Source: Thermosynechococcaceae cyanobacterium MS004
Lineage (GTDB): Bacteria > Cyanobacteriota > Cyanobacteriia > Thermosynechococcales > Thermosynechococcaceae
Assembly: GCA_022402525.1 (NCBI GenBank)
Contig: JAKRSB010000126.1
Location: 62,001 to 126,000, forward strand
Reading direction: 5' to 3'
DNA length: 64,000 nucleotides
The position numbers were made by a program, and so were the translations under genes. Of this stretch, positions 2,963-14,228 are shown piece after piece; within the stretch, counting starts at the first letter, position 1, and the number at the start of each line of letters is the position of its first letter. Under the pieces are notes generated by a model. It searched no databases. It was given only the letters and a program-made list of their open reading frames with translations, and had not been told where the DNA came from.

Positions 2963-5776
2963 CTAAGGTTTGCGCTGGTTTGGCGCAATAGATTTCCATA
3001 ATCGCTCTCGGAAGGGTTGCAGCCCATTATCCAGTCCAGGGCTATAGCTCGGCGATGGGAGTAGTTCTGCAAAAAACTGGGTCATCGCAATATTCTCAAC
3101 GACAGGAAAGAAGTCTGTGGGCGCTGGCCCATCAATGTGGCGACTGAGGACTCCAAAGCCAGCTCGTTCTCGTGGATATTGCCGACTCGGAACCAGTTGC
3201 TGAATCCATTGATCTAAGGATTTGGCTTGATTCATACTGGTGGTCAATGCCTCTACTAACTTAGGATCGGGGAGGGCTTGACTGGCTTCTAGGACGGCCT
3301 TTTCAATCCACTGCGATCGCTGTTGGGGTTCTAGCCATGCTTTGAGGATTGGCGCACTTGGGGTGACAGGATTGTTGCGATTATTGCTGCGGGCGATCGC
3401 CAACACATCGCCACCTAGGGGCGTTCCATGCTTTCGCCACTGCCCATTCGCCTCAGCGTGTTTCCCTTGCCACCAGTACAAGCCCCCCAGACATTGACGT
3501 AAATAAGGGGTGAGCGGATTCTGCTCAGAACGGTTTTGGAGCAATTGCAGATAGATTTGCTCCACCGCGCCAAGAACCTGCGGATAAATCCCCTGATACT
3601 GCGTAGAGCGCCAAAGCGGACTGGTTAACCAAATTGGATCTCGGACAATTTCTAAGGCCAGCGCCTGTACCCCCCAATCCACCTTATTTTGCGCCAGCAA
3701 ACTGAGACCTAAACTATGAAACGCGCCCCGCTTTGCGGGCACCAACTGAGTCGATTTGAGAAAGGAAGTTGTGGCTTCAGCAAACTGACGATTGAAAAAC
3801 TGTAGCCACCCTAAACTACTGGTGCCTGCTTCTTGATAGGGGGAGGCCTGGGTATTGCGTTGAAAAAAGTCCTGGCTTTGACTTAAGCGAGCTTGACTGG
3901 TTTGGCCACCCTCACTTTGTGCGTTTTCACTTTGGGTATTGGCTAGGTTCCAGCCCAACTGATAGGAGTAGTAAGGCTCCCAGGGGGCAAGCTGATGAGC
4001 TTGTTCTAAGTATGTTGTAAATGGCTCAATTTGTTTTTGGCTAAGGGCGGCAAAGCCTAGGCTAGAGAGCTGCCAAGCCCGCAGAATGGGCGTCATCCAG
4101 ACCCCAACGACTAACAACAGCCCGCATAACCCCCAACAAATCCATGCCACCTTCAATCGTTTTGGAAATTGTCGAGCTTCATCTGCTGGAATATAGTCGC
4201 GCAAGAGAGAGAGTAGACATACGCCGTAGAGGATGAGCGTCCCGCTGATGCCGATAATATCCAACTGGTAGTCCGTGAGGCTGACAATGCCATACCCGAT
4301 TAGCCCTGCAGATAAGCTCACGCTCAGGAGATAGTCGCGCTCCAATGCCGGGGGCTGCAATTCTTTTGCAGAAGAATCTTTTGAAGAGAGATCTTTTGAA
4401 GAGAGAGCTTGCGATCGCTGCTCTCCCAGTCTGCGCCCCAACCTAACCCCCCAATAGCCTAGCCAGCCTAAGAGTCCCAACATAAGAGCAATCCCCACTC
4501 CCCCGAGTTCAGCCCAAATTTGAGCCGGGGTACTGTGGAGCTGGTACACCAGTTCTGCTTCCCGGCCCGCCCAGGCCGGACGGTACTCTTGATAAAGTAG
4601 CGGTACACCCCCCAGACCAACGCCAAAAACAGGATGCTCAAGCCCCATGGCCCACCCTGTGACATTGGTAATCAGTCGAAACGCAGTTTCTCCCCCCGCA
4701 CCATCTAGGGTGGAGGCAGTGAACAGCGATCGCAGTCGATTATTGGCCAGGATAATGCCCAGCAAGGCAGCAACGGAACCCAATCCCACCATCCACCGAA
4801 AGCGAGGGGTGGTAGCCGTTCTCATGGGCAGGTGTCCCAGGAGCAACAATCCGCCCGTGAGAACGACTGCGGCCACCCCTAACCACCCCCCACGGGAACT
4901 GGTGGTGTATAGATCGACCAGCCCTAGCAAAATTCCCCCACCCCAAAGCCATCTCCATCGAGGCTGAGCGCTCACGCTTAACGCAAGCAATAGGGGCAAA
5001 CTTAAGACTAAATAACCCGCCACATAGTTTTGATGCCCAATGGGTGCCCAGTTCCGGAGTTCTAAAACTGAAAAGTCATAGAACACACTGAGCCCCGCTG
5101 CCCTGAGGCTTGCCAGCCGACCCATCTCTGGGAAAAAAGTTTGACTACTCCAAAGCCCAAGGCTCACGACCATAAACGCAAGGCTCAAACTGCCCTGGAG
5201 TACCAGGAGCTGATGACGTCGAGCAGGGCTACGACACCAGGCATTTAGGGTATAGAAGGCGGCGATCGCGCCCAAGGCTGCCCAACTATACCAACGCGCC
5301 TGCTGCGGGAAGGGAGCCAGCACCATTGATCCCACCAGCCCCACGAGGGCTAAAGCAATACCGTAATCCAGACCGTAGCCCAACCCGTTCAGACGCTTCT
5401 GACGCCATCCTTCTCGCAGTAGCCAGAGCCATGGCAACAGAAGTGCAACTTGACCGATCAGCACCCAAGGCCAAGACACCACTAGACTGCTGCTATCCGG
5501 CAGTAGGGTGAAGAGAATGTAAAACCCCACCCCAAGGAGTCCAAAAATATCCTTGCGGCGATCTGTAGACGGTGGGCTGGCCAAAGAACTCACTCCATGA
5601 AGGGGGATGGCAGGTTTTGAAGATGAAATAGCGGAGGTGGAATAGCAGAGGCAGCGCGATCGCCATGAAGCCTGTTCGTATGCACACTGAATGCCTCCGC
5701 AGTGAGGATACCCGATTCTTTGGGATAACCGACTACTGGGAGGTGACACCCCTCTGCAAGCCCACGATAAACTCAC
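2963..5776 (-). CDS. O-antigen ligase-like membrane protein with C-terminal TPR-like region
   Basis: The longest frame encodes 937 residues. From about residue 75 a run of some ten membrane segments carries the Wzy_C/O-antigen-ligase signature, including the LGLVDLYTTSSRGGWLG stretch and a large extracytoplasmic loop (about 350-420). After the last membrane pair (about 540-570) comes a soluble region with helical, tetratricopeptide-like repeats such as the EPYYSYQLGWNLA and AFHSLGLSLLAQNK segments. Family members join or polymerise lipid-linked glycans in the periplasm. The first 60 or so residues are Ser/Cys-rich and look non-native; GTG at 5593 (VSSLASPP) is a plausible true start. It could serve the same polysaccharide pathway as the transferase at 874-2313. 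Confidence 0.85.
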   Translation of the reverse strand: MSLSWACRGVSPPSSRLSQRIGYPHCGGIQCAYEQASWRSRCLCYSTSAISSSKPAIPLHGVSSLASPPSTDRRKDIFGLLGVGFYILFTLLPDSSSLVVSWPWVLIGQVALLLPWLWLLREGWRQKRLNGLGYGLDYGIALALVGLVGSMVLAPFPQQARWYSWAALGAIAAFYTLNAWCRSPARRHQLLVLQGSLSLAFMVVSLGLWSSQTFFPEMGRLASLRAAGLSVFYDFSVLELRNWAPIGHQNYVAGYLVLSLPLLLALSVSAQPRWRWLWGGGILLGLVDLYTTSSRGGWLGVAAVVLTGGLLLLGHLPMRTATTPRFRWMVGLGSVAALLGIILANNRLRSLFTASTLDGAGGETAFRLITNVTGWAMGLEHPVFGVGLGGVPLLYQEYRPAWAGREAELVYQLHSTPAQIWAELGGVGIALMLGLLGWLGYWGVRLGRRLGEQRSQALSSKDLSSKDSSAKELQPPALERDYLLSVSLSAGLIGYGIVSLTDYQLDIIGISGTLILYGVCLLSLLRDYIPADEARQFPKRLKVAWICWGLCGLLLVVGVWMTPILRAWQLSSLGFAALSQKQIEPFTTYLEQAHQLAPWEPYYSYQLGWNLANTQSENAQSEGGQTSQARLSQSQDFFQRNTQASPYQEAGTSSLGWLQFFNRQFAEATTSFLKSTQLVPAKRGAFHSLGLSLLAQNKVDWGVQALALEIVRDPIWLTSPLWRSTQYQGIYPQVLGAVEQIYLQLLQNRSEQNPLTPYLRQCLGGLYWWQGKHAEANGQWRKHGTPLGGDVLAIARSNNRNNPVTPSAPILKAWLEPQQRSQWIEKAVLEASQALPDPKLVEALTTSMNQAKSLDQWIQQLVPSRQYPRERAGFGVLSRHIDGPAPTDFFPVVENIAMTQFFAELLPSPSYSPGLDNGLQPFRERLWKSIAPNQRKP

Positions 5777-7537: not shown

Positions 7538-8038
7538 CTAATCTTCTGGTTTCGCCGTTGATTCTACCGTAGGTTCGGCAATTGACTCGGCAGTTGGTTC
7601 GGCAAGTGATTCGGCCGTAGGTTCGGCATTTGATTGACCCATCGTCTTTTCCTGTCCTCCATCTGCATCATTGCTCTCAGATGAGCGCTCATCTGAGAGC
7701 TGATTGAGTAAAGACAGCACCCGCATGCCGCGCTCAATGGAGCGATCTTCGACAAAAATGACTTCTGGCGTGCGCCGTAGCCGCACCCGCTGACCCAGCA
7801 GACTGCGCACGTAGCCCGCTGCTGAGTGCAGCCCCTCCATCGCAGCGGCTTTTACTTCATCGGTGCCGTAGATGCTGACAAAAATTTTAGTATGCTGCAA
7901 GTCTCCAGAGACGTACACATCCGTCACCGTGACCATGCCGCTGCCCACCCGCTCATCTTTGATGCCGTGAAGCAGCATAAGGCTCACCTCGCGCCGGATG
8001 GACTCCGCCACGCGCGAAACTCTGATTCCTGTTGCCAT
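7538..8038 (-). CDS. rbfA: Ribosome-binding factor A
   Basis: The first 120 residues match RbfA, the KH-like factor that binds the 30S subunit and helps mature the 5' end of 16S rRNA. The [17 protein letters not shown] start, the [23 protein letters not shown] core and [17 protein letters not shown] are clear. The remaining 45 residues are an acidic, low-complexity tail of repeated AEPTAES units, encoded by a 24-base tandem repeat around 7567-7630 that is not part of the family core. It lies between a DUF751 gene upstream and the hexosaminidase downstream, all on the minus strand. DUF751-rbfA is a common cyanobacterial arrangement. Confidence 0.96.
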
Positions 8039-8128
8039 TGCCCTTGTTCCCTTACCCGTGATGCCAGGAGATTGAGGATCATCTATCCCCAGACCAGTCT
8101 AGCCTGAACCACTGGATTCACCACGCGA

Positions 8129-8329
8129 TTAGGCTGGTAAACCCAACATGGCTTTGAGCGTAAGGGACAGAAAAATGAGGCTGCTGATCAGGATGCCAAT
8201 CAGGGCGATCGCTGTAGTGGGGCGGCGCAGCATTGGCCCCATCGGCTCCAAAAAGTTCCAAAACACTCCTGCAATGAGGGCGATCATGTAGCGAGGGTAG
8301 CGTGAGACGTTTTGAAAGAAATCTTGCAT
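8129..8329 (-). CDS. DUF751 (Ycf33-type) small membrane protein
   Basis: This 66-residue protein fits DUF751/Ycf33, a small thylakoid-associated family conserved in cyanobacteria and some plastids. It has the QDFFQNVSRYPRYMIA start and two hydrophobic stretches (about 17-35 and 41-62) separated by PMLRRPTTAI. It is encoded just upstream of rbfA, 90 bases apart, as in many cyanobacteria. A longer frame starting at 8354 overlaps it in another phase and is a shadow. The function of the family is not established. Confidence 0.88.
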   Translation of the reverse strand: MQDFFQNVSRYPRYMIALIAGVFWNFLEPMGPMLRRPTTAIALIGILISSLIFLSLTLKAMLGLPA

Positions 8330-8456
8330 GATCTTTTTTGTCTAAAAACACCATTAAAAACCCGTATCTTGAGATCTTAACCCAGCCTTATGGATTAAAA
8401 GCTCCGGCTGTGATTTGCCTTTGGGCTGCTGGCGTTCTGTAATGGCTTTGTGGGAG

Positions 8457-9089
8457 CTATTCTGTCGTTTCCGTGACTCCTTCTAGAAATGCGATCGCCA
8501 TCTTTCCCCATAAATTCTCTTCGGTGAGATGTTCGCCCAGTTTGAGGGTGGCTTTTTTGCCGCCGTTCCAGAGGCGTTTGAGATTTAGGAAGTTTTGCCA
8601 GCGTTGGGGTTGTGTCTTTTGGAGTTCTTGAAATTCGGCATCAATGATGGGTTGAAGGGCAGCTTCTGGGGTTTGAGCGGGGTATTGTTGCTGGAGGGTG
8701 TTGAAGAATTGTTGGTAGTCAGCTAGCAGTTTATCGAAGTCTTGTTCTGGGGCGTAGATGTGTTGGGTGGCGTCTTGACGACCGCCGGATTGGATGGTTT
8801 CGGCAAAGTTACCGATGTTGGCTCCGCGCAGGTCGTATTTTGGGGTTTCTGACATGGGTTTATCTGAGTCGGGTTTGGCTAGGGTAACAATGGCATCCAT
8901 TATGCAAATTTGAACGTCTGGGGTGCGTTCTTGCAGAAGGGCTTCGCAGAGGGTGGTGAGTGCTTCGGTGCTGGCCAATTCACCTAGACATTTGGCGGCT
9001 TTGGCACGGGCTTGAGGGTTGGGATTCTCTCGTAAGACTTGGCTCAGGGCTTCGATGGCTTGTTTGAGGGTGTTTGGGTTGCGGGCCAC
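8457..9089 (-). CDS. HEAT-repeat protein with YDLRGANIGN motif and C-terminal helical domain
   Basis: This 210-residue protein has two HEAT-like helical pairs (about 5-72), a short linker, the motif YDLRGANIGNFAET at residues 85-98, and a helical C-terminal domain (about 115-205) with the LLADYQQFFNTLQQQYP and WQNFLNLKRLWNGGKKATLKL segments. Nearly the same motif ends the LRR-Roc-COR GTPase two genes upstream. The gene starts 8 bases after the stop of the preceding HEAT gene in a different frame, so the two may be halves of an older single gene or a coupled pair. Similar short motifs in bacterial signalling proteins can mediate self-assembly, which here is only inference. It is the last gene of the operon. 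Confidence 0.75.
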   Translation of the reverse strand: MARNPNTLKQAIEALSQVLRENPNPQARAKAAKCLGELASTEALTTLCEALLQERTPDVQICIMDAIVTLAKPDSDKPMSETPKYDLRGANIGNFAETIQSGGRQDATQHIYAPEQDFDKLLADYQQFFNTLQQQYPAQTPEAALQPIIDAEFQELQKTQPQRWQNFLNLKRLWNGGKKATLKLGEHLTEENLWGKMAIAFLEGVTETTE

Positions 9090-9097
9090 GGCTGCGC

Positions 9098-9598
9098 TTA
9101 TGCCTCGCGAGCGTAGATTTTAGAGACGGATTCGATGGCATGAATCCGCACGGTATCGCTGGCGTCTTGGAATGCTTGCAGGAGCGAGGGGATGGTGGCT
9201 TCGGAGCCAATTTCGCCGAGGGCTTGTACTGCGGTGGCGCGGACGGTTGGGGTGTTGTCGTTGAGGGTTGTGAGCAGGTAGTCGATGGTGTGTTCGTTGC
9301 CGATTTTGCCGAGGGTGTCGGCGGCGGCGGCACGGATTTCGGGGATTTCGTCGAGGAGGAGGGGGATGAGTTGGGGGATGGCGGCGGCGGCACGAAGTTG
9401 GCCGAGGGCTTGGATGATGCTGAGCCGGACGAGGGGGCTGGGGTCGTTGAGTTGAGCGAGGAGGTTGGGCAGGGCGGCTTGGAGTTCAAGGCGTCCGAGG
9501 GATTCGGCGGCTTTGGCACGAACTTGGGGTTCTGGGTCGGCGAGAGTTTGGCAGAGGGTGTTGAGGACGAGTTGTTGTTGTGCAAGGGTTTGAGTCAT
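9098..9598 (-). CDS. HEAT-repeat protein
   Basis: This 166-residue protein is made almost wholly of HEAT/PBS-lyase-like repeats of about 31 residues: about five units with the pattern PxVRAxAAxxLGxLG, for example PQVRAKAAESLGRL, PLVRLSIIQALGQL, PEIRAAAADTLGKIG, PTVRATAVQALGEIG and DTVRIHAIESVSKI. Such solenoids are protein-binding scaffolds; related forms in cyanobacteria also act as phycobilin lyases, but none of the lyase context is here. The start lies 17 bases downstream of the Roc-COR gene and the stop 8 bases upstream of the second HEAT gene, so the three form one probable operon. A regulatory or adaptor role for the GTPase is inferred from this. Confidence 0.85.
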   Translation of the reverse strand: MTQTLAQQQLVLNTLCQTLADPEPQVRAKAAESLGRLELQAALPNLLAQLNDPSPLVRLSIIQALGQLRAAAAIPQLIPLLLDEIPEIRAAAADTLGKIGNEHTIDYLLTTLNDNTPTVRATAVQALGEIGSEATIPSLLQAFQDASDTVRIHAIESVSKIYAREA

Positions 9599-9615
9599 GG
9601 GGGATGCCTCGGTTA

Positions 9616-12168
9616 TTAGGTTGTTTCAGGAGCCTGGTATGCTTTGGGCTGGGTTGGTGCTGCGGGAATTTGAGTGGTTTGTTGCGTTCCGTTTTGATGT
9701 TCTGCCCAGTTACCGATACTAGCTCCGCGCAAATCATAGTGATGTATAGCGTGCGGGTTTATGGGGCTGGCCTCACGGTTTTTGCTACGTCCGACACCAT
9801 TCAGGAGCTGGGTAACGGACAAATCAAGGATATCTTTGTTGGGTAATACCACTTCAACGGTGTGCCGACCTTTTTCTTCTCTGACTAATAAATCCTGGTA
9901 GGGTATGCAGACTTCTGGATGGTCAGGGATGGGCACCATTGCTTGGGGCTTGAAGGAAAAACTGTTGTGAATGTGGTCAAAGTTGGCGCGGATAATGGCG
10001 AGTAAGGAGCGCTGACTAGGGGGCGCTCCGGTGACGGAAATATACACGCGCTTTTCTTGAATATCGGCTTTGACGAGGGCAAGGGCACCCTCAAATTCTA
10101 AAATTACCCCAGTGCGCCAGCGGAATTGATGGGTGCTATGGCTATGGGTGCGGACAATAAAGCGGGGGAGCAACCCTTCGGGCAGGATGGGGTAATGGTA
10201 CTGGAAGTTAAGGCTGTGAAGGGGGTTAAAGGTTTCGGCTTCTGGGGGCTGCTGTTTGTCGAGCAGTTGGGGGATGAGGTAGTGGTCATTACGATCGGGG
10301 AAGGGGAAGCATAGCTCAAATTTCTGCATAAGGTCGATGAGAAATGGATGCCGATCGCGGGGATAGTCGGCAGAGGGGAGGAGTTGGGCAATATCGCTGA
10401 GGCTGAGGTTGCCCTTTTGCTGGGCGAGGCGGGGGGATGTGAGGAGGGTATAGATGCCTTGAGTGATCCAGTGGGGGTTTAGGACATGGGTGTCGCGGAG
10501 GCGGGGGTCGTTTTTGTAATTGAGGACAATACCAAGCCTATGCAGGGCAGCGGCTAGGGATTCTTGGGCTTGGGGGTCTGCTTCGCCTTTGTCTGCACAA
10601 ATGGTGCAGTATTGCTCAAAGCTTAGGTAGTTTTGTGGCATGGTGGCCAACTGGTCTTTGATGCCGAACCAGCTTGCGGGGAATTCATCGCGCAGGTGCT
10701 TGAGGTTGTGGGTTGTGCGCTCAATGGCTTGCCGAAGCTGGACTAGATTGTGAGCATCTTCGCAGTCGGTTTCAATGAATTCGACGATATGGATGAATTT
10801 TTGCCGTAGCCCACTCCGGTTGAGGTCAAAGGGGCAGGCTTTGATTTTGTTGAGCACCACAATGACGGGGGAGTCTTCGCCAAAGCTTTCGATGAGGTTG
10901 AGCCAGTATTCGGCATCGGTGTCTTCGTGGCCTTGGCGACCGTTGAGCACCAGAATGTAGAGACTGCGCTGGGTTAAGAAAAAGTGATGGGTGGCGTGCA
11001 TAATTTCTTGGCCGCCAAAGTCCCAAACATTAAGGCGCACGTCTTCGGTGCCGTTGAGCTGAATAGGCCACTGGGTAATTTGAATGCCTTGGGTTTGGGG
11101 TGCGTCTTTATCAAAGGTGTTATGCACCAGACGGCTGACTAAGGAGGTTTTGCCCACACCGCCATAGCCGATCAAAATGAGTTTGGCCTCGTTGAGAGGG
11201 CGTTTTTGGCCTTGTTGGGTGCGGTAGTAGTAGTCAAGGATAGTCTGTGGGCTTGTGGGAGTTCCCCTTCTTGCAGCTACTTCAAGCGCAGTGAACCCTA
11301 AAATTTCGGGTGGCAGATTCAGACCATCGTTTTTATGGAGATAGAGCTCTTCCAATTTACTAAGCTTTCTTAATCCGTTCGGTAGGCTCGTCAGTTGATT
11401 GTCCCAGAGGTCAAGAGTTTGCAGATTAGTAAGCTGGGAGACCGCATCCGTTAGGCTCATCAGTTGATTGAAGCCGAGGTAAAGCGTTTGCAGATTAGTA
11501 AGCTGGGAGATCGCATCCGGCAGGCTCGTCAGTTGATTGCTGGTGAGGTCAAGCGTTTGCAGATTGGTGAGCTGGGCGATCTCATCTGGTAGCCTCGTCA
11601 GTTGACTGTTGCCTAGGAAAAGCGTTTGCAGATTGGTGAGATGGGTGATCGCATCCGGTAAGCTCGTCAGTTGATTGTCGCTGAGGCTAAGATTATGTAG
11701 ATTGGTTAGCTTGGTGATCGCATCTGGTAGCCTCGTCAGTTGATTGTCGCTGAGGGCAAGCGTTTGCAGATTCGTGAGCTGGGCGATCGCATCCGGTAGG
11801 CTCGTCAGTTGATTGCCGCTGAGGGCAAGCGTTTGCAGATTCGTGAGCTGGGCGATCGCATCCGGTAGGCTCGTCAGTTGATTGCCGCCGAGGTCAAGCA
11901 CTTGCAGATTCGTGAGCTGGGCGATCGCATCCGGTAGGCTCGTCAGTTGATTGAAGCCGAGGGAAAGCGTTTGCAGATGGGTGAGCTGGACGATCGCATC
12001 CGGTAGGCTCGTCAGTTGATTGCTGGTGAGGTCAAGCGTTTGCAGATGGGTGAGCTGAGTGATCGCATCCGGTACGGTTGTCAACGCTAGATCTGATAAA
12101 TCTAGCTGAACTTCGCCAGACTCCAGAGCCTGCTGAATCCGCTGTTCTGCCTCGTAGAGCTTTGCCAT
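9616..12168 (-). CDS. Leucine-rich-repeat Roc-COR GTPase (ROCO family)
   Basis: This 850-residue protein has about eleven LRRs of 23 residues (about 22-285, consensus LPDAIAQLTNLQTLxLxxNQLTS), a Roc GTPase domain with Walker A GYGGVGKTS at 334-342 and switch II WDFGGQE at 382-388, then a COR dimerisation domain (about 490-790). The fourth G-motif reads NKIK at 440-443, where the Asp that reads guanine is expected. The tail carries YDLRGASIGNWAEH at 811-824, nearly identical to a motif in the second HEAT gene. ROCO proteins are dimeric GTPases related to human LRRK2, and bacterial members have few known roles. It leads a three-gene operon. The LRR exons are near-identical 69-base units in DNA. 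Confidence 0.93.
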   Translation of the reverse strand: MAKLYEAEQRIQQALESGEVQLDLSDLALTTVPDAITQLTHLQTLDLTSNQLTSLPDAIVQLTHLQTLSLGFNQLTSLPDAIAQLTNLQVLDLGGNQLTSLPDAIAQLTNLQTLALSGNQLTSLPDAIAQLTNLQTLALSDNQLTRLPDAITKLTNLHNLSLSDNQLTSLPDAITHLTNLQTLFLGNSQLTRLPDEIAQLTNLQTLDLTSNQLTSLPDAISQLTNLQTLYLGFNQLMSLTDAVSQLTNLQTLDLWDNQLTSLPNGLRKLSKLEELYLHKNDGLNLPPEILGFTALEVAARRGTPTSPQTILDYYYRTQQGQKRPLNEAKLILIGYGGVGKTSLVSRLVHNTFDKDAPQTQGIQITQWPIQLNGTEDVRLNVWDFGGQEIMHATHHFFLTQRSLYILVLNGRQGHEDTDAEYWLNLIESFGEDSPVIVVLNKIKACPFDLNRSGLRQKFIHIVEFIETDCEDAHNLVQLRQAIERTTHNLKHLRDEFPASWFGIKDQLATMPQNYLSFEQYCTICADKGEADPQAQESLAAALHRLGIVLNYKNDPRLRDTHVLNPHWITQGIYTLLTSPRLAQQKGNLSLSDIAQLLPSADYPRDRHPFLIDLMQKFELCFPFPDRNDHYLIPQLLDKQQPPEAETFNPLHSLNFQYHYPILPEGLLPRFIVRTHSHSTHQFRWRTGVILEFEGALALVKADIQEKRVYISVTGAPPSQRSLLAIIRANFDHIHNSFSFKPQAMVPIPDHPEVCIPYQDLLVREEKGRHTVEVVLPNKDILDLSVTQLLNGVGRSKNREASPINPHAIHHYDLRGASIGNWAEHQNGTQQTTQIPAAPTQPKAYQAPETT

Positions 12169-12348: not shown

Positions 12349-12735
12349 TTAGAATTCTGCCAAGTGCTTTGCTAGAGCGACTCTGGAGGGGATTGAAACT
12401 TTTCGATGATGCCGCTGGAGATCTTCTGTGTCCACATCATCCTGGTCAGATTTAGCATAAACGGATAGCAAAACCACAGCACTAGGAGAAAGGATTTGAT
12501 AAATGACTCGGTAGCCACCACTTTTACCCTTGCGAATCGTGCTATTTCTCACCCGAAGCTTATAGACCCTGTAGCCTATTCCAGAAATTTGATCTCCCAG
12601 AAATTCACCCTTTTGGAACTGTTCGATGATGAGCTGGAGATCTGACCGAAGATTTCGGTAACGTTTTTCAAGAGTACGCGCTTGGCGCTTGAATTCATTT
12701 GCAACAAAAACTTGGATAGAAGGCACCTCAGTCAT
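12349..12735 (-). CDS. RelE/ParE-like toxin of a type II toxin-antitoxin pair
   Basis: This 128-residue basic protein shows the RelE/ParE fold pattern: a helical FKRQARTLEKRYRNLRSDLQLIIEQF segment, the GYRVYKLRVRNSTIRKGKSGGYRVIYQ beta-sheet core with clustered Arg and Lys, and LLSVYAKSDQDD near the end. RelE-type members cut mRNA on the ribosome and ParE-type members attack gyrase; which applies here cannot be told. The antitoxin gene overlaps its start by 8 bases, the usual order. The C-terminal 30 residues extend past the usual RelE length. Confidence 0.8.
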   Translation of the reverse strand: MTEVPSIQVFVANEFKRQARTLEKRYRNLRSDLQLIIEQFQKGEFLGDQISGIGYRVYKLRVRNSTIRKGKSGGYRVIYQILSPSAVVLLSVYAKSDQDDVDTEDLQRHHRKVSIPSRVALAKHLAEF

Positions 12736-12964
12736 CCAGAGCGTCCCAAAGCGTTTCGACAGAACTGATGCGCCCTGCTTTTACATCTTCGAGGGCGCGC
12801 TCGAATCCGGCTAGCACTTCAGCTTTGGAGGTGTCTTGAAGGCCAGAGGGCTGCACAATTTCCTGGAGCGCCCCAAGAACAAACGCTTCTAAAGATAGGT
12901 TGAGTTGAGTGGCTCTCTGGGTGAGCTGTTCTTCGAGATCTTGGGGAATTTGAATGGTTCGCAT
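12728..12964 (-). CDS. Antitoxin partner of the RelE/ParE-like toxin
   Basis: This 78-residue protein begins with a ribbon-helix-helix-like MRTIQIPQDLEEQLTQRATQLNLSLEAFVLGAL segment that would bind DNA. An acidic C-terminal part (about 45-78) follows, which in such antitoxins wraps the toxin. It overlaps the toxin gene by 8 bases and precedes it, so translation is probably coupled and the pair autoregulated. The antitoxin subfamily is not clear. Confidence 0.72.
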   Translation of the reverse strand: MRTIQIPQDLEEQLTQRATQLNLSLEAFVLGALQEIVQPSGLQDTSKAEVLAGFERALEDVKAGRISSVETLWDALDD

Positions 12965-12995
12965 AAAGCTGAATCTTTCTAAAGATCTTTTTAAA

Positions 12996-13049
12996 GTGCA
13001 CCAGACTATGGTTTTCTCTTCTATCGTAGGCGATCGCTCTTTAGTTGCC
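12996..13049. repeat. Direct repeat, left copy, flanking a UPF0175/DUF3368 cassette
   Basis: About 54 bases here recur at 14028-14082 with roughly 85-90 percent identity by eye. The shared core is a GGTTTTCTCTTCTATCGTAG stretch with matching GCACCAGAC before it and GATCGC after it. The copies bracket the second toxin-antitoxin-like pair. Confidence 0.8.
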
Positions 13050-13053
13050 GATA

Positions 13054-13542
13054 TCAGGATGGGCCAATATCAGGATGGGTCAGAAGCATCTGAATCAGCT
13101 TAGGTGAAGCTCGAAAATTTGTTTTATTCATGAGCTGGGCAAGCACAACAGGCAGCTCAATTTCGCCTAACCTTGCAGCCTCGCTTAGAATACCGAGCAA
13201 CCCAGTAATTTTTATGCCTAAAGCAGTTGCAGCCTGTCGAGCAGGTTTATCATCCACAATAAGTAAATCAGCCTGGATTTGTAGCGCAAGCTGAATCGCT
13301 GCACGTTCGCCAGGATCCAAACGCATCAGGGCTAAATTCGTGGGTAACTCCACAACATAAACATTTAGCCAGCTAGGAGGTTGTTGAATCCATTGTTGCA
13401 AAATTACGGGCGCGCCAGCCGCAAGCATCTCATCTCGCACAGCTTCAGGAATGTTAATACTTCCGTAAAGCTTTGGCAGCAATTCAACTTGATTGATGAG
13501 CAATAAATAGTGAATGGGTGATGTATCGGAAACAACGATCAT
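13054..13542 (-). CDS. DUF3368 PIN-like nuclease, putative toxin
   Basis: This 162-residue protein matches DUF3368, a PIN-domain relative. The opening IVVSDTSPIHYLLLINQ has the first PIN Asp, DPGERAAIQLALQIQADLLIVDDKPARQAA holds the acidic Glu and Asp-Asp cluster, and LGILSEAARLG follows. PIN toxins are metal-dependent ribonucleases. The UPF0175 gene upstream overlaps it by 4 bases, a recurring pairing in cyanobacteria that is taken as toxin-antitoxin. Both lie between the 55-base repeats. Confidence 0.85.
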   Translation of the reverse strand: MIVVSDTSPIHYLLLINQVELLPKLYGSINIPEAVRDEMLAAGAPVILQQWIQQPPSWLNVYVVELPTNLALMRLDPGERAAIQLALQIQADLLIVDDKPARQAATALGIKITGLLGILSEAARLGEIELPVVLAQLMNKTNFRASPKLIQMLLTHPDIGPS

Positions 13543-13811
13543 CCAGGTTGACTACGCAATTGGTTTAGGGTTTCAATATCTTGTTCAAGATCTGACTCGG
13601 CATAGTGCAGATAGGCTTCGTGCGTCTTCAGGAAACCGTCCACGGCAAATCGAGAGGGTAAGTTCAAAATACGTCCAACTTCAGCACTTGTAATCTTTTC
13701 AGACTTATAGGCTTCAACGACAAGATTTTCAAGGATGTGCCGAGAGAGAGCAGCACGATCTATCTGAAGCTGACGGGCCAGCTCATCGGGAATTTCAACC
13801 GTAACTTCCAT
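13539..13811 (-). CDS. UPF0175 family protein, putative antitoxin
   Basis: This 90-residue protein matches UPF0175: MEVTVEIPDELARQLQ, then helical segments with LSRHILENLVVEAYKSEKIT and the helix-turn-helix-like SAEVGRILNLPSRFAVDGFLKTHEAYL. The open frame extends to 14084, but the extra 91 residues are low-quality, HIP1-rich sequence. ATG 13811 has a GAGG ribosome site about nine bases upstream and matches the family start, so it is preferred. It overlaps the DUF3368 gene by 4 bases and probably represses their shared promoter. Confidence 0.82.
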   Translation of the reverse strand: MEVTVEIPDELARQLQIDRAALSRHILENLVVEAYKSEKITSAEVGRILNLPSRFAVDGFLKTHEAYLHYAESDLEQDIETLNQLRSQPG

Positions 13812-14027
13812 GAAAACAACCTCAAGATTACTGAGCTTGACTTGACTATTTTGGCCAGCGACCCTTAACCCTCTTTTGCCAATTCTAGGCGATCGCCCTT
13901 GCGCGATCGTTTGCAAGATTGTTCTGTCCGCGTTTCTGCATCCGTGAGCGTGTAAAGCTGCCACCATTGGGCATAGTGTTTGCTCAGCGATCGCAAATAG
14001 GGCTGAAAGTCGATCTCCGCTGCCATA

Positions 14028-14082
14028 GCGCACCAGACCTACGGTTTTCTCTTCTATCGTAGGTGATCGCCCTTGAGTCGCC
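14028..14082. repeat. Direct repeat, right copy, flanking a UPF0175/DUF3368 cassette
   Basis: This is the partner of 12996-13049. It lies about 220 bases upstream of the UPF0175 start. The two copies are in the same orientation, as expected after cassette capture or excision-type recombination. Confidence 0.8.
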
Positions 14083-14228
14083 ATAGGACAGGTAACGTCC
14101 CTGCCCTGTGTAGGGTCAACGCCTCCTCACCAATGCGTAGTCTTCAGTCACCCACTGCCAGAGCGATCGTAGTGTCCAGCAGAAGGGCGCTGCTCAGTTC
14201 AGAGTGCGCATAGTCCCCTGCGTCGCGT

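Follow-up and report, generated by a model that had tools for sequence, protein, structure and literature searches.

A shared motif links a Roc-COR GTPase to a downstream helical-domain protein in a cyanobacterial operon

A three-gene operon and its shared motif

The window analysed here, 64,000 nucleotides of contig JAKRSB010000126.1 from Thermosynechococcaceae cyanobacterium MS004, contains a minus-strand operon in which a GTPase with leucine-rich repeats (LRRs) and Roc and COR domains ends in a short motif that recurs in the product of the third gene. The original prediction of three genes (12168–9616, 9598–9098 and 9089–8457) separated by gaps of 17 and 8 bases was reproduced, in both coordinates and domains, by gene calls and Pfam. 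The operon is a member of a widespread and apparently undescribed family of cyanobacterial two-part systems.

The first gene (9616–12168) encodes an LRR-Roc-COR (Roco/AP-GTPase) protein of 850 residues, the proposed sensor, in which Pfam recognizes LRRs, a Roc GTPase domain (residues 329–442, 10843–11184; PF08477, E = 1.5e-30), a COR-A domain (residues 497–636, 10261–10680; PF16095, E = 4e-41) and a COR-B domain (residues 652–791, 9796–10215; PF25497, E = 5.9e-32); the motif lies in its C-terminal tail (residues 811–840, 9649–9738; YDLRGASIGNWAEHQNGTQQTTQIPAAPTQ). The second gene (9098–9598) encodes a HEAT-repeat protein of 166 residues, a putative scaffold, whose homologues are placed between sensor and effector at three other loci (L059, E = 1e-53; L161, E = 1e-47; and L141). 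The third (8457–9089, with a GTG start) encodes the proposed effector, a protein of 210 residues in which Pfam similarity to HEAT repeats is confined to the first ~75 residues and is followed by the cognate motif (residues 85–116, 8742–8837; YDLRGANIGNFAETIQSGGRQDATQHIYAPEQ), predicted by AlphaFold to be disordered, and then by a helical domain (residues 115–208, 8466–8747) that we name AEIQ after its conserved EAAAEIQQLL. As an internal methionine, Met79, begins MSETPKYDLRGAN..., the same start as in stand-alone relatives such as that of Microcystis, the HEAT part of this protein is probably a fusion.

The motif had been proposed as a 14-residue match, starting in the GTPase at residue 811 and in the third protein at residue 85. 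Alignment extends it to ~30 residues (811–840 against 85–116), with a local score of 74, whereas 20,000 shuffled versions of the tail reached at most 48, and this match is the best local alignment between the two proteins taken whole. In the source genome the motif is present only at these two sites; a search of 386 genomes of the phylum with its exact DNA pattern, which proved too strict, recovered the Microcystis counterpart. The string YDLRGANIGN is similar to the pentapeptide consensus, which would suit an explanation by chance similarity or ordinary pentapeptide repeats. However, the Pfam pentapeptide models PF00805, PF13599 and PF13576 match neither window protein, and unrelated motifs pair at other loci. 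This explanation is refuted by the shuffle test together with three analyses described below (an unselected test of 48 effectors, a Mantel test of tails against effector motifs, and counts over 149 loci), and we consider it scarcely credible.

The tail also stands where relatives of the GTPase have something else. Its three closest Roc-COR homologues, 57–61% identical over the COR region, lack the tail: two have TIR_2 in that position (Pfam) and the third has TIR-like sequence at a contig edge, and homology to the window GTPase ends near residue 801, shortly before the motif. One of the three is an LRR-Roc-COR-TIR paralogue in the same genome, 61% identical (G000:C122, L240, 3852–6620), which adjoins a ParA-like gene on a 14.5-kb contig that may be a plasmid. 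An orthologue that kept the tail with no partner beside it would speak against a link between the two proteins, and none of the three closest homologues is of that kind. Because they have TIR in the place of the tail, the window GTPase looks like a receptor whose fused effector gave way to a tag for a separate effector. A variable C-terminal effector slot is known for AP-GTPases (PMC8195603), and the window tail fits it.

The AEIQ domain and its motif-bearing partners

The AEIQ domain comprises ~85 residues in four helices and forms the C-terminal end of the third protein. No Pfam or NCBIfam model covers it; the window copy scores 47.8 bits against a hidden Markov model (HMM) that we built from its relatives. 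These occur in 132 of the 390 sampled Cyanobacteriia genomes and also on cyanobacterial plasmids; they often carry a pentapeptide annotation, owing to their other domains. A scan that took one genome per species, over 84,980 species, found 254 relatives, and the 79 loci kept from these all have cyanobacterial titles. None was found in the phage records searched, and IMG/VR yielded one (L246, IMGVR_UViG_3300022536_000055, 3082–5402), a membrane AEIQ protein that lies with a vWA-like protein amid terminase- and portal-looking phage genes and is possibly borne by a prophage. In AlphaFold models the domain is a bundle of four helices (pLDDT about 80) and the motif before it is disordered; the window effector looks similar, with an added HEAT cap and low pLDDT over the motif. 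Compared with solved folds, the domain gave no meaningful match (best Foldseek E = 2.3; best VIA-align Z = 6.0, at 4.8 Å over 83 residues). For the model of the whole effector, the only matches were to HEAT folds.

While the AEIQ domain is constant, the 25–40 residues preceding it are of several unrelated types, rich in G, N, Q, V and I (for example YDLRGANIGNFAETVQGD, VGNINTGDVTIQGDQVGIQH, FAGGFAETVQGDQIGGNI, GDKIGGDKIGGDK, ATIGVNYAAENSNIKFQQN, FPKAKKVQVFEQVDTYIE and GDRNINTGGGNYNERIEGDYIQGN), and genes adjoining an AEIQ effector bear the same motif type as that effector. Among 48 independent stand-alone effectors, taken with no selection on score, 21 had an upstream neighbour whose tail matched at a score of at least 45, as against 1.6 expected when loci were shuffled (p ≤ 5e-5). 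The corresponding body control was not fully null (3 against 0.8 expected, p = 0.014), probably owing to HEAT–HEAT similarity (L183) and pentapeptide similarity. We rely on this test and not on a rank test, which was partly circular because its pairs were chosen by score. Of 149 loci, which may include a few near-duplicates such as L100 and L151, 33 had the cognate motif at the C-terminus of a neighbour (4.1 expected with swapped neighbourhoods) and 19 had it at the N-terminus of a neighbour (2.6 expected). The N-terminal segment began as a control and is counted as evidence since it gave real motif matches to NLRs. Genes in this survey were greedy open reading frames, and the survey is biased towards effectors resembling the query. 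Orphan motif-bearing proteins exist, but the motif was not commonly met apart from such a genomic link.

The partners are mostly NTPase sensors (NACHT-HEAT, LRR-Roc-COR and other STAND proteins), together with DUF6232 and pentapeptide proteins. C-terminal motif tails were found on NACHT-HEAT proteins (L041, L059, L097, L163, L173, L157 and, with trypsin, L142), on LRR-Roc-COR proteins (the window, and L172 and L228 with other motif types) and on pentapeptide proteins (L068, L120, L145). Short DUF6232 (PF19744) proteins with C-terminal tails are recurrent partners just upstream of AEIQ effectors (L155, L162, L166); similar-looking proteins stand at L151, L153 and L176. N-terminal motifs occur on downstream NTPases of the NACHT, NB-ARC, nSTAND or AAA_35 kind. 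Finally, sensor and effector may be joined in one chain with the motif at the junction, as NACHT-HEAT-motif-AEIQ (L044, L061, L062, L063, L135, L072) or as LRR-Roc-COR-motif-AEIQ (L070 and about eight of 30 Roc-COR loci).

Tail and effector motif are exchanged together. Among 11 NACHT-HEAT sensors there are near-identical bodies with unrelated tails (L142/L157, 81%; L140/L165, 79%; L059/L173, 76%), and in each of these three pairs every tail matches the effector of its own locus. In a Mantel test over the 11 sensors, tail similarity tracked effector-motif similarity (rho = 0.71, p ≤ 5e-5), whereas body similarity did not (rho = 0.04, p = 0.41). At L142 the effector is of the window type, with the same YDLRGA motif, but the sensor is a NACHT protein; L059 has the three-gene layout of the window with a different sensor and a different motif. 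By these comparisons of sequence, the sensor and the motif are separable cassettes, and a change of motif affects both sides jointly. The original prediction that the motif ties the sensor to the downstream protein is thus borne out by co-exchanged tails and motifs, by sensor-motif-effector fusions, and by NLR partners of the same effector domain that carry the motif N-terminally.

The pairs might instead be leftovers of gene splitting, in which a sensor-motif-AEIQ fusion broke within a duplicated motif and left two copies that do not interact. The fusions do bear a single motif at exactly that junction, and gene order is collinear with them. Yet in loci from diverse genera tails stay in register with effector motifs, a correspondence that sensor bodies do not show, functionless tails would be expected to decay, and the partners also include DUF6232 proteins, pentapeptide proteins and downstream NTPases with N-terminal motifs. 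We regard such an origin as very improbable.

Several further observations concern these loci. Some effectors (L071, L100/L151) have two different motifs in tandem, one of which matches the neighbour's tail, and are possible two-input hubs. In Nostoc, clusters of at least three genes (L091, L112, L115, L120) have one motif type throughout and combine an AEIQ membrane or pentapeptide protein, a pentapeptide protein with a C-terminal motif and an NTPase with an N-terminal motif. In the window itself, GC skew is 0.27 over the operon (8001–12000) and ~0 in most of the remainder, and genes of toxin-antitoxin type lie just upstream of the GTPase (12349–14084): a RelE-like gene with a ribbon-helix-helix partner, and DUF3368 with UPF0175. 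Several related loci (L097, L157, L170, L172, L173, L228) have toxin-antitoxin-like genes (for example BrnT-like, PIN-like, ParE-like), mostly named by eye, between sensor and effector.

A possible split sensor-effector switch

The reading that we favour, with somewhat better than even confidence and from sequence comparisons, is that the operon encodes a split switch, in which a Roc-COR GTPase receptor would recruit the AEIQ effector through its tail by homotypic, amyloid-like contact. The 40-residue C-terminal tail occupies the place of the fused TIR effector of the nearest homologues and has its motif in common with the AEIQ protein encoded two genes downstream, where the motif is N-terminal of the domain. 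On sensing of a trigger, a nucleotide-dependent rearrangement of Roc-COR would expose or cluster the tails, which would then recruit and template the effector motif by beta-type (amyloid-like or beta-solenoid) contact. The AEIQ domains so clustered would then act in a response akin to abortive immunity, probably by damaging the cell or by signalling, with the HEAT proteins probably serving as scaffold for the pair. We favour homotypic templating because sensor and effector have one and the same motif, which is short, disordered, composed of G, N and Q to 33% (15% in sensor bodies) and N-terminal on NLRs in related loci. The original prediction of a paired motif joining an NTPase sensor to a downstream protein in the manner of NLR amyloid signalosomes thus holds for the link, and its amyloid, signalling and immune parts are what we infer.

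The main rival to templating is that the motif serves as a static docking tag, holding the two proteins in a constitutive complex through a homotypic contact that is short and beta-structured, or specific in some other way. Cognate specificity and the fusions require only specific contact, and the paired motifs of L163 and L157 (FPKAKKVQVFEQVDTYIE) are not rich in G, N or Q. Against this, motifs are homotypic, 20–40 residues long, disordered in models and enriched in G, N, Q, V and I, and NLRs are among the partners of this effector domain, arranged like those of the amyloid-type BASS motifs discussed below; we think static docking unlikely.

The same logic of paired motifs could also serve a regulatory pathway unrelated to immunity (signalling in stress, in development or at the phycobilisome), the AEIQ protein then being an adaptor and not a toxin. 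AEIQ proteins do include large ones of the pentapeptide and membrane kinds in which no toxin domain is obvious, and PADLOC-DB 2.0.0 returned no specific known-defence model, only generic HEAT, P-loop or weak matches. On the other hand, the sensor classes (NACHT, NB-ARC, LRR-Roc-COR) and the TIR that homologues have in this slot are ones typically seen in conflict systems (PMC8195603), and there are plasmid-borne copies and neighbouring toxin-antitoxin genes. Regulation outside immunity is, in our judgement, improbable.

In addition to the PADLOC result and the motif composition at L163 and L157, several points weigh against an immune switch operated by templating. One bacterial Roco protein is reported to turn monomeric with GTP (PMC5714945, PMC11052575), a behaviour not obviously favourable to seeding by oligomerization. 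Near some AEIQ genes that bear a motif no partner could be detected, as at the same-genus L060, which has no tailed sensor beside it. Fold searches gave AEIQ no recognizable fold or catalytic residues, and the window copy is of the less hydrophobic kind, which gives no indication that it lyses membranes.

Roco-family GTPase switches are of the LRRK2/DAPK1 type, LRRK2 being the Parkinson's disease protein. More tentatively, and with rather less than even confidence, we suggest that a Roco-family GTPase may here act as an amyloid-type receptor whose C-terminal tail seeds a prion-like fold in a separate effector of an undescribed domain family, as part of a modular code of many jointly swapped tag types in cyanobacteria. 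If true, this would bring Roc-COR GTPases, in addition to NLRs, into amyloid-type signalling, with the usual polarity of the motif reversed. The survey also identifies a common effector domain with no family model in about a third of the sampled Cyanobacteriia genomes, and its near-identical sensors with different tags form a natural set of cognate tag pairs suited to direct study of motif specificity and cross-talk.

Comparison with known systems

The literature searched, which excluded the original BASS paper, gave no description of the AEIQ domain or of the sensor-tail arrangement, and some motif types here may overlap BASS families. In BASS (bacterial amyloid signalling sequences), motifs of 20–40 residues, belonging to many unrelated families and reported mainly from actinobacteria and cyanobacteria, are encoded by adjacent genes (PMC7889193, PMC8086366; Dyrka et al., 2020), at the N-termini of NLRs and the C-termini of Bell proteins (PMC8086366). 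Generic amyloid predictors are reported to perform poorly on such motifs (PMC8086366). The window operon and 33 + 19 of the 149 loci resemble BASS in setting an NTPase sensor beside a small helical effector with a common motif, and some AEIQ partners are likewise NLRs with an N-terminal motif. In contrast, the window and most stand-alone pairs show the reverse polarity, with the motif at the C-terminus of the sensor and, in the effector, before the effector domain. As sensor the window has a Roc-COR GTPase and not a STAND/NLR protein, although relatives have NACHT or NB-ARC, and the other sensors here include NACHT-HEAT, DUF6232 and pentapeptide proteins. The effector domain of BASS is Bell; that of the present pairs is AEIQ, which is helical with no Pfam or PDB fold match and may or may not correspond to Bell.

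A templating logic is described for both BASS and the fungal HET-S/NWD2 pair (PMC7889193, PMC12881547). HET-S/NWD2 resembles the present system in having sensor and effector genes side by side and a short common motif beside a helical effector domain (PMC12881547); the polarity here is opposite, and the likeness seen is one of arrangement.

Several partners are NACHT-HEAT proteins, as in the bacterial NACHT (bNACHT) and Avs anti-phage NLRs. The window sensor itself is most readily placed beside the AP-GTPase conflict systems (Kaur et al., 2021; PMC8195603), which likewise combine LRRs, an AP-GTPase and COR with a C-terminal slot for TIR, GT4, EAD and other domains. Unlike those systems, the window protein has no effector or adaptor domain C-terminal to COR, and its slot holds instead a motif tail that points to a separate gene, encoding an AEIQ domain with no Pfam model.

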